The notes under the pieces: model-generated | The model's database searches: none | Told to the model about the DNA's origin: nothing | The model's input: the letters and a program-made list of their open reading frames with translations, nothing else | Virus record (IMG/VR): IMGVR_UViG_3300035216_000306 | Coordinates: 1-22,212 of that record | Strand: one strand, 5' to 3' | Source of the DNA: a virus | DNA: 22,212 nt | Program-made: the position numbers and the translations under genes | Shown: positions 5,440 through 7,661 of the stretch, piece by piece | How the letters are laid out: every line of letters begins with the position of its first letter | Position numbering within the stretch: position 1 is the first letter of the stretch

Positions 5440-5466
5440 AAAAAAAGGGGATGCCGTCGCACCCCC
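5440..5466 (-). terminator. Intrinsic terminator after the porin-like gene
   Basis: GGGGGTGC pairs with GCATCCCC (eight pairs including one G-T) around the four-base loop GACG, followed by seven T. It lies 38 bases past the stop of the 121-residue secreted protein. The T-run leads straight into the next ATG. Confidence 0.88.
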
Positions 5467-5504: not shown

Positions 5505-5870
5505 TCAGAAGTTGAACTTAGCGCCCAACTTACCACCAAGACCGAAGTCATCATCGTCGTCAGCCGTCAGGAAGGAGAGCTCACCGTATACTCCGATAGA
5601 ATCGGTGACAGGGACGCCAACTCCTGCTTTACCAGAGAACTGGGTGTCAGTTTCTTCACCGTCAACAGCGACGATTGCAGGACCAGCCTGGACGTAGTAA
5701 GAAGCATCACCTGCTTCTCCTTCAAATCCTACGTGCAGGTCTGTGGTTGCAGCGGTATAGTCATCGCCAACCCAACCAGCATTGGTTTCGATATTGACGT
5801 AGGGACCTGCAAGGGCAGCGCCTGCGGACATGGACAGAGCAGCAGTTGCTGCGAATACAGATTTAAACAT
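5505..5870 (-). CDS. Secreted porin-like beta-rich protein (121 aa)
   Basis: A clear signal peptide (about residues 1-21, MFKSVFAATAALSMSAGAALA) is followed by alternating short strands rich in Gly, Asp, Tyr and Val (GPYVNIETNAGWVGDDY; TDLHVGFEGEAGDASYYVQAG). The protein ends in FGLGGKLGAKFNF, a C-terminal aromatic residue typical of outer-membrane beta barrels. The size would allow a small barrel of about eight strands. Placement in the outer membrane of the infected cell is likely but inferred. It has a strong dedicated promoter, a long structured leader and its own terminator, suggesting high monocistronic expression. Confidence 0.75.
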   Translation of the reverse strand: MFKSVFAATAALSMSAGAALAGPYVNIETNAGWVGDDYTAATTDLHVGFEGEAGDASYYVQAGPAIVAVDGEETDTQFSGKAGVGVPVTDSIGVYGELSFLTADDDDDFGLGGKLGAKFNF

Positions 5871-5889
5871 TTGTTTTACCTTTTTGTCT

Positions 5890-5980
5890 CGTAGAGTTTA
5901 ACCTACGGATGGAAAGAGACTCGACGCGTCTCTGTTTGTTTGAACTACATGCCCCCAACCTAAGTTTGCGAGGGTAGGGC
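5890..5980 (-). promoter_or_regulatory. Structured 5' leader of the porin-like gene
   Basis: Between the terminator-like hairpin and the start codon the leader contains three further foldable elements. GCCC...GGGC with inner ACC/GGT pairs spans 5980-5951. AGAGAC/GTCTCT, a perfect six-pair stem with a seven-base loop, spans 5933-5915. CGTAG/CTACG, a five-pair stem, spans 5907-5890. AAAGG lies close to the ATG as ribosome binding site. It matches no riboswitch class I can name with confidence. It may control stability or translation. Confidence 0.45.
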
Positions 5981-5987
5981 ACTGTTG

Positions 5988-6020
5988 AAAAAATCTTGTG
6001 AGGAATTGTCGTCTCACAAG
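5988..6020 (-). terminator. Intrinsic terminator of the glycan operon, or 5' hairpin
   Basis: CTTGTGAG and CTCACAAG form a perfect eight-pair stem around a ten-base loop, followed by ATTTTTT. It lies about 30 bases after the stop of the last glycosyltransferase. It also begins exactly where transcripts from the overlapping promoter (6056-6028) would start, so the same hairpin could protect the 5' end of the porin-like mRNA. Confidence 0.75.
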
Positions 6021-6022
6021 CT

Positions 6023-6056
6023 TATTTATTATAATATAAAACTATCAACCCGTCAA
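6023..6056 (-). promoter_or_regulatory. Strong promoter with overlapping late-type box
   Basis: TTGACG (6056-6051) and a perfect TATAAT (6033-6028) are spaced by 17 bases. The -35 overlaps the TGA stop of the last glycosyltransferase. AATAAATA (6030-6023), close to the T4 late consensus, overlaps the -10. This would drive the porin-like gene early and possibly late. Confidence 0.8.
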
Positions 6057-6850
6057 TCTTGTGTTGGTTGATGTGAGGATTCCACTACTCTTCCAAAATA
6101 AGGATCAAAGTTCATTAGTTCCTCAATGGTCATCTGTGCTCCGGCATTGGACCAGAAGTTGAATTGTGCATTGAAGTTATGCTTATGGAAAGCATCAACA
6201 TGATCAGGATGAATACTGGATCCCAGTTCAATCTTATACAGAAGAAGTGGGATAGAGTAGGTGTTACCAGAGTTGTAGATGAGATCATCAGCTACAGGTC
6301 TCGGACGTACACCATTGTCTAGTTTGTACTTGTCCCCTCTTGTATGAAGTCTTAATAACTTCTGAGCGTGATGTCTAGTGATTAGATAACAAGCTGTAGA
6401 GAACTCATTCACGAACCTTTTATGGATCTTGATATTGATATCACCAGTACAGATGATAGCGATTTGGACAACGTCCCAATCATAAGGAACTTTACCATAG
6501 AAATCTTTCCATGTAAAGTTCCAGAACTTTACTAGATCGAGACTACAATCGTCTTCCATTATAATTGCATAGGGATCATCCGTCTCCTCTACGAAGTGTC
6601 GGAGAGCCCTGAGATGTGACGTTACACACCCTACCTCACCAGAAGACATCATATCAGGGTAACGACCCTTCAAAATCTCTCCTAGATCACTTTCACGGCC
6701 GTCATAGGCAGAAATACGATGGTAGTTCTTTACCTCCCAGTATTTGAACTGGTCCTCCATGAATTCCCATCTCTCAGGTTGCCCATCCAGATTAATACAA
6801 TAAATGGGTCCAATGTTCTGGAGTTTATAAACTGACTTATTCTTGTCCAT
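6053..6850 (-). CDS. Glycosyltransferase family 25 (LPS-type)
   Basis: GT25 enzymes transfer galactose or related sugars in lipopolysaccharide and glycoprotein synthesis. From ATG at 6850 the 265-residue protein has the family start IYCINLDGQPERWEFME, then GEVGCVTSHLRALRHFVE and the acidic nucleotide-sugar/metal site YAIIMEDDCSLD. A later basic region contains RPRPVADDLIY. The frame is open 29 codons further upstream, but that part overlaps the previous gene and reads poorly, so the start with a 14-bp overlap is preferred. It is the last gene of the glycan operon, directly before the terminator. Confidence 0.85.
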   Translation of the reverse strand: MDKNKSVYKLQNIGPIYCINLDGQPERWEFMEDQFKYWEVKNYHRISAYDGRESDLGEILKGRYPDMMSSGEVGCVTSHLRALRHFVEETDDPYAIIMEDDCSLDLVKFWNFTWKDFYGKVPYDWDVVQIAIICTGDINIKIHKRFVNEFSTACYLITRHHAQKLLRLHTRGDKYKLDNGVRPRPVADDLIYNSGNTYSIPLLLYKIELGSSIHPDHVDAFHKHNFNAQFNFWSNAGAQMTIEELMNFDPYFGRVVESSHQPTQD

Positions 6851-7661
6851 TGATACGTCGTTTGTAATAATCTTGGGATGTAATATATTCTCGGAGTGTT
6901 TCGGAATCCATCTTCTGGACTCTACTCCACTCTTCATTATTCTCAGTCATATGGGGGTTGGTAAACCAAGAGTTGGGTGTCCTCTCATGTTCTAGGTGAT
7001 AGACCATAGAATTCAACCTTCCAACATTATACCCCAGAGTGCCAAACCTGTAAAATCTTTCAACGTCTTCTGGAGCATATGCAATAAAGTTCTCATTCTC
7101 CAACCCACCTTCAATATAGACATTACGATTGAAGAACTGACAGAACCCATACTTAGAATCATACTTAGTAGATTTCTTTCTAAGGATAGAAAAATCAAAT
7201 TCTTCAGTCAAGAATTCAGATACAAGTTCATCATCAGCTATAACACGATACTGGTAATCACCATCACCATATGGGTACACTACATCAGACTCTTTGTCAA
7301 GAATAGTGTTATATGCACTTAGATAAGACTCTACAGGGAGAAGGATATCACAATCATAGTTGACCACAATCTCAGTCTCACTCTCCATAATCATGTCATT
7401 TAGGATAGACTGACGATGAAATGTTTGTGATTCGGAGAATACAAACTGATGAATGAGACCTTTGATATCACCACAAAATTCAATGATCTGAGGTAGTGCC
7501 TCTTCAACAAATATAGAACGGTCATCAACCTCTCTAAGAATGATAGTAGTATCAAAATTTGATAACAAATAACAAACTGAAGTGATAACATTCCTAAGTC
7601 TATCGTCTGACTCAATTCTGACAGGGATAATAAAAGTTGCTTTAGTTAAGTCATGTTTCAT
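6837..7661 (-). CDS. GT-A fold glycosyltransferase, GT2/galactosyltransferase-like
   Basis: The N-terminus KATFIIPVRIESDDRLRNV is the usual GT-A nucleotide-binding opening. The metal-binding D-x-D is NYDCDILLP (about residues 100-106). The C-terminal acceptor half has YGFCQFFNRNVYIEGGLENE followed by YAPEDVERFYRFG, like the GG-(x)n-E-D-x-x-x-x-R segment of galactosyltransferase C-terminal domains. At 274 residues it is complete. It overlaps its neighbours by 11 and 14 bp. The sugar and acceptor are unknown. Confidence 0.8.
   Translation of the reverse strand: MKHDLTKATFIIPVRIESDDRLRNVITSVCYLLSNFDTTIILREVDDRSIFVEEALPQIIEFCGDIKGLIHQFVFSESQTFHRQSILNDMIMESETEIVVNYDCDILLPVESYLSAYNTILDKESDVVYPYGDGDYQYRVIADDELVSEFLTEEFDFSILRKKSTKYDSKYGFCQFFNRNVYIEGGLENENFIAYAPEDVERFYRFGTLGYNVGRLNSMVYHLEHERTPNSWFTNPHMTENNEEWSRVQKMDSETLREYITSQDYYKRRINGQE

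Follow-up and report, generated by a model that had tools for sequence, protein, structure and literature searches.

How can a single stretch of 69 bases close one transcription unit and open the next? The question is raised by positions 5988-6056 of a 22,212-nt virus record (IMGVR_UViG_3300035216_000306, positions 1-22,212; hereafter the window), whose relatives are T4-like cyanophages infecting Synechococcus or Prochlorococcus and whose minus strand carries most of its genes. A sequence-only reading had described here a promoter and a terminator that share one hairpin, and all of the elements that it named are indeed present on the minus strand (Table 1). Our preferred explanation, to which we give a probability of about two in three, is that these bases mark the boundary between a glycosyltransferase operon and an outer-membrane-protein (OMP) unit, and combine a dual promoter, a protective hairpin at the transcript start and a terminator particular to one clade, with a leader RNA for the OMP gene downstream. 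Each part belongs to an established type, and what is new is a variant in how they are combined.

Table 1. Features of the glycosyltransferase/OMP boundary in window coordinates.
Feature	Position	Strand	Remarks
GT25 glycosyltransferase gene that closes the upstream cluster	6053..6937	-	Glyco_transf_25 PF01755, E 2.3e-13; phrog_2835, E 1.5e-124
-35 element TTGACG, sigma70-type (early) promoter	6056-6051	-	Invariant in all 9 clade members
GT25 stop codon TGA	6055-6053	-	Inside the -35 TTGACG
-10 element TATAAT	6033-6028	-	17-nt spacer; TAYAAT in all clade members, spacer sequence varies
Late-type (gp55) box AATAAATA	6030-6023	-	Overlaps the -10; kept in all clade members
Predicted early transcript start	6021 or 6022	-	Lies 6-7 nt past the -10
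Start-site hairpin, 8 bp, 10-nt loop	6020-5995	-	Stem invariant in 9 contigs
Stem arms CTTGTGAG and CTCACAAG	6020-6013 with 6002-5995	-	
Predicted late transcript start	6017	-	Falls within the stem's 5' arm; a G here in every clade member
T-run ATTTTTT	5994-5988	-	Makes the hairpin intrinsic-terminator-like; 6-8 T in clade members
Leader hairpin A	5915..5933	-	Invariant GUCGA loop; 6/6 pairs with two-sided changes
Leader hairpin B (CGTAGG..TCTACG)	5890..5907	-	Immediately before the ribosome-binding site; cells 100% paired, two-sided changes in 3 pairs
AGG, probable Shine-Dalgarno core	5879..5881	-	GGT shortly before ATG in all 33 aligned leaders
Phage_OMP outer-membrane beta-barrel gene	5505..5870	-	PF24653, E 1.2e-49; phrog_417, E 2.3e-46
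Terminator closing the OMP gene	5440..5466	-	8 bp, 6 G-C, TTTTTTT

The early promoter agrees with the consensus at 11 of 12 box positions (TTGACG-N17-TATAAT); its -10 is the perfect hexamer that had been reported, and the stop codon of the last glycosyltransferase gene does fall within its -35, as a stop codon falls within TTGAC in S-B05, RN05-S, RB11-B, Bellamy and S-SCSM2R. The late-type box over the -10 matches the S-PM2 late motif NATAAATA (PMC2984593), and A at -13 is a variant of the late box at nine T4 sites (PMC2988020). The start sites are predictions, made to within 1-2 nt. Since the T4 late box spans -13 to -6, we place the late +1 six nucleotides after the last base of the box, which puts it within the stem. 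The predicted early start adjoins the stem, much as had been claimed, but the stem begins at +2 and not at the first transcribed base. The downstream gene, previously called porin-like, encodes an outer-membrane barrel, and as a strong terminator ends the unit, it should be transcribed as a one-gene message.

Near-consensus promoters of this form exceed chance expectation in the window. TTGAC-N18-TATAAT with at most one mismatch occurs nine times in the window against 0.76 expected, and strong promoters other than that at 6056-6028 are present. With one mismatch likewise allowed, TATAAATA occurs 33 times against 34 expected; being unenriched, the late box is uninformative by count alone. Folding the 39 nt that hold the hairpin gives -10.2 kcal/mol (z -3.2), and 2 of 200 shuffles do as well. 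A stronger argument for the element as a whole comes from comparison. A pattern scan of viral contigs recovered this hairpin with its T-run from eight contigs besides the window, and the exact pattern nowhere else. TTGACG and its 17-nt distance from TAYAATAAATA persist in these relatives, as do the stem and 6-8 T after it, whilst the spacer sequence, the discriminator (two bases ahead of the stem) and the loop have drifted. Hairpin energies across the window and its clade range from -9.1 to -10.2 kcal/mol. The clade members are closely related, and no compensatory changes are seen among them within this stem.

As in intrinsic (rho-independent) terminators, a stem containing G+C is followed directly by the T-run (-10.2 kcal/mol, ATTTTTT). 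Unlike typical examples, however, this one is only moderately stable, its T-run is preceded by an A and it lies downstream of a promoter start; it also misses the strict -11 energy cut-off used for cyanophage terminators (PMC3037559). A further predicted hairpin, GTGCCC..GGGGGCAT, lies between the T-run and the leader at 5985-5947 (minus strand); its sequence is found only in the window's clade.

To place the element in a wider context, we collected 80 viral loci encoding Phage_OMP and read their upstream regions. Most carry TTGACA-N17-TAgTATAAATA, in which the -10 of an early promoter overlaps a perfect late box of the T4 type, and the TATAAATA box is present in most of them. A promoter could be recognised in 55 distinct upstream regions, which are related sequences; among these, the best hairpin near the predicted start averages -8.4 kcal/mol against -3.8 when shuffled, and 43 of the 55 have a hairpin of -7 kcal/mol or below, mostly starting at +2 to +5; the automatic choice of promoter fell inside the upstream gene for five loci (L024, L040, L044, L046 and L062). 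These hairpins are unrelated to one another in sequence (CCTTTTGT..ACAAAAGG, TGTCACAC.., CTTGTGAG.. and others). Some relatives deviate from the common layout: the early and late promoters stand apart, or the early one is missing, as in the tRNA-preceded L045, L050 and L080, and in S-RSM4, S-CAM8 and S-SSM5 a separate early promoter starts directly before leader hairpin A. The idea that the hairpin serves as both cap and terminator thus divides in two. A start-site hairpin is a general property of the OMP gene, whereas the T-run is confined to nine contigs, the window included; hence capping or stabilising the mRNA would be the general role and termination a local addition. The sequence-only reading is in part supported by these comparisons, the general feature being a 5'-end hairpin on a dual early/late promoter and the terminator a local elaboration.

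The same architecture is shared with psbA, which the sequence-only reading had passed over together with a conserved two-hairpin leader at 5933-5890. A search for dual boxes in 15 cyanophage records returned 21 sites, about two per genome, against none for a reversed-pattern control in the same records; 12 lie before psbA and seven before OMP, making 19 of the 21. The remaining two, L151 (P-HM1 41865-41898) and L166 (record G001, 176833-176866), precede neither gene; that of P-HM1 has small hypothetical genes downstream and no start-site hairpin. When all viral contigs were scanned, 89 of 126 sites stood before other genes, a lack of specificity that follows from the collection holding every kind of phage. 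In these contigs, a hairpin of -6 kcal/mol or below accompanied 32 of 35 dual sites before OMP and 17 of 25 before psbA, against 20 of 89 elsewhere.

We considered whether such hairpins are simply a trait of strong promoters in general, and rejected this. On the plus strand of Bellamy, hairpins at the starts of ordinary promoters average -2.97 against -2.93 shuffled, with no excess on either strand of this genome, and the plus strand of S-SCSM2R shows a slight excess at most; on its minus strand, start-site hairpins occur at 6 of 18 ordinary promoters against one when shuffled, though these numbers are small. The dual sites of both genomes, unlike most of their ordinary promoters, carry start-site hairpins beyond chance.

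Overlapping early and late promoters have been proposed as a middle mode of expression in cyanophages (PMC2984593), and S-PM2 psbA has early and late motifs and a hairpin in its 5'-UTR (PMC5931967). The window's promoter resembles both these cases, the former including RB49 alongside the cyanomyoviruses, in carrying a sigma70 -35/-10 pair, here with 17-nt spacing, and a gp55 late motif of the NATAAATA type over the -10 in one region; with S-PM2 psbA it also shares the hairpin. It differs from them in standing before an outer-membrane-protein gene, in the stop codon within its -35 and in the U-run of its hairpin.

Downstream of the start-site hairpin, the OMP leader is a conserved RNA. In an alignment of 33 leaders, 9 of 12 pairs are changed on both sides and 94.7% of cells are paired; the covariation score is 0.623, compared with 0.259 after shuffling and at most 0.212 for slid pairings. 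The covariance model, R1, matches the window at 5946-5868 (E 6.1e-19), the window being one of the 33 sequences from which the model was made. It matches 16 of 20 records, with one confident copy per record in most; a second match in Syn10 has an E-value of 0.67, and those in P-HM1 (E 6.5e-4) and P-SSM7 (E 0.011) are weak. Among the 20 records, no match was obtained in two cyanopodoviruses, ACG-2014f or the IMG/VR record G001. The association with the gene is exclusive: in an exact-pattern scan, an OMP gene lies downstream in 119 of 119 matches with enough flank.

Membership of a known RNA family was rejected, as a search of Rfam gave no matching family for the window apart from two chance-level hits; no paper describing the leader was found in the open-licence literature. 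The nearest parallel is PhotoRC-II (RF01717), the psbA leader, which is likewise a conserved structured leader behind a cyanophage dual early/late promoter, and into which the psbA dual promoters lead. The two differ in structure and in gene, and the PhotoRC-II model finds no match at gathering score in the window while it does match psbA leaders. A host origin was also rejected: 84,980 bacterial and archaeal genomes yielded two matches, both on contigs of metagenome-assembled genomes (MAGs) with a Phage_OMP homologue. These contigs, assigned to Rhodobacteraceae (L289) and Lewinella (L290), carry the cyanophage leader with the Phage_OMP gene, L290 with two adjacent OMP copies, and are probably misbinned cyanophage DNA. 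Exclusive as it is to the Phage_OMP genes of cyanomyoviruses, the two-hairpin leader is probably of more value than the 69 bases originally reported. Indeed, the dual-promoter architecture common to psbA and OMP, together with the OMP-specific leader RNA, is the more general and better supported finding.

From these elements a sequence of events can be proposed. Early in infection, the host sigma70 RNA polymerase would use TTGACG/TATAAT, and later the gp55 polymerase would use the overlapping late box; since both promoters share one TATA region, OMP could be transcribed early and late, as proposed for psbA. The transcripts would begin at or near the hairpin, and protection of the mRNA 5' end is the most likely role of that structure. 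Structured 5' ends stabilise phage and bacterial mRNAs. Stabilisation by structure at the 5' end has also been argued in PMC5931967. In the window's clade, transcription running on from the glycosyltransferase operon is probably terminated by the hairpin with its U-run. Some of the early OMP transcripts should likewise end there, at a length of about 34 nt: a terminator 34 nt below its own promoter should cut OMP transcription too, which counts against this reading. Before the ribosome-binding site, the two leader hairpins would form a dedicated OMP leader, probably controlling translation or stability. The sequence, its conservation, the covariation and the exclusive tie to OMP are shown directly, whereas start sites, termination, protection and timing are inferred. 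A literature search for a cyanophage transcriptome with start sites returned none.

It is possible, if unlikely, that the element is mainly a mobile cassette, a recombination joint between swappable gene modules. Such composites are described as promoter-early stem-loops (PeSLs) of T4-type phages (Arbiol 2010 and Comeau 2014, as cited in PMC4503421), and the architecture of promoter and stem-loop found here fits that outline: a host-like early promoter is joined to a stem-loop/terminator at a gene boundary, and the flanks look mosaic. Compared with the window over 6937-5200, one relative (L090) is 96% identical on the glycosyltransferase side and 73% in OMP, while another (L009) is 91% identical in OMP and 40% in the promoter region; L009, L023 and L024 together show 90-91% in OMP and 40-54% in the promoter region. 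These discordant identities on the two sides suggest that recombination joined different modules near the boundary between promoter and OMP, as is described for PeSLs. Nevertheless, no special cassette is needed to explain a small number of recombinations between genes. PeSLs have many similar copies dispersed through one genome and dense in its shuffled regions; these have no counterpart among what was searched, namely viral contigs, of which eight carry the hairpin pattern, and the 22 kb of this phage. The pattern occurs at this locus only, and the R1 leader has a single confident hit per genome. From PeSLs the element differs further in its added overlapping late box and in a stem placed at the transcript start, mostly without a U-run in relatives. 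As no dispersed copies were found, we do not claim membership of this class.

Similarly improbable in our estimation is a plain overlap, in which the terminator of the glycosyltransferase operon and the promoter of the next gene are independent and without functional link. Crowding of this kind could be expected where intergenic regions are short, as in cyanophages (median 6 bp in S-PM2; PMC5931967), and the window holds other strong promoters as well as another terminator beside a late box. There, at 17107-17073 (minus strand), a strong terminator (AGGACGGGATGACCCCCGTCCT and a T-run) runs into a perfect late box, TATAAATA, at 17080-17073, upstream of a 90-aa ORF at 17047-16775; its order of terminator and late promoter is opposite to that at 5988-6056. 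Here the promoter precedes the hairpin, which is the wrong order for a simple terminator followed by a promoter, and hairpins recur at the same position in relatives with different sequences and without the U-run.

A more elaborate alternative, which we hold to be rather improbable, is that attenuation depends on the start site. Early transcripts from 6021/6022 would fold into the complete 8-bp stem and end near 34 nt. Late ones from G6017 would lack the bottom three base pairs, leaving a gap before the U-run, and would escape termination; OMP would then be a late gene despite a promoter active early. The predicted late +1 does lie three bases inside the stem in all nine clade members; a start there leaves a stem of 5 bp, lowers its stability from about -9 to -5.5 kcal/mol and places 3 nt before the U-run, from which late transcripts might escape termination. 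In the commonest class of relatives (TATAAATACTTAACC), moreover, the late +1 is the first base of the stem, and the U-run is absent. Against this, the positions rest on predicted starts, a shift of 2-3 nt would abolish the effect, and the arrangement belongs to one small clade. That early RNA terminates itself after some 34 nt and late RNA starting 4-5 nt further in escapes, as a working timing switch, we accordingly rate as slightly more doubtful still; if true, timing would be set solely by which sigma factor picks the first base. Attenuation in its classic form, by an alternative antiterminator fold, was rejected as unsupported: no such competing fold was found, and stem pairing probabilities were at least 0.97 at every transcript length tested up to the full leader.

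The OMP leader adds to the known RNAs a conserved one without an Rfam entry that is directly testable. In cyanophages, it is chiefly at psbA and the OMP barrel that dual early/late promoters come together with start-site hairpins and a structured leader dedicated to the gene. The product of psbA keeps photosynthesis running in infected cells. This places the barrel beside psbA, as a gene that the phage seems to want expressed throughout infection.
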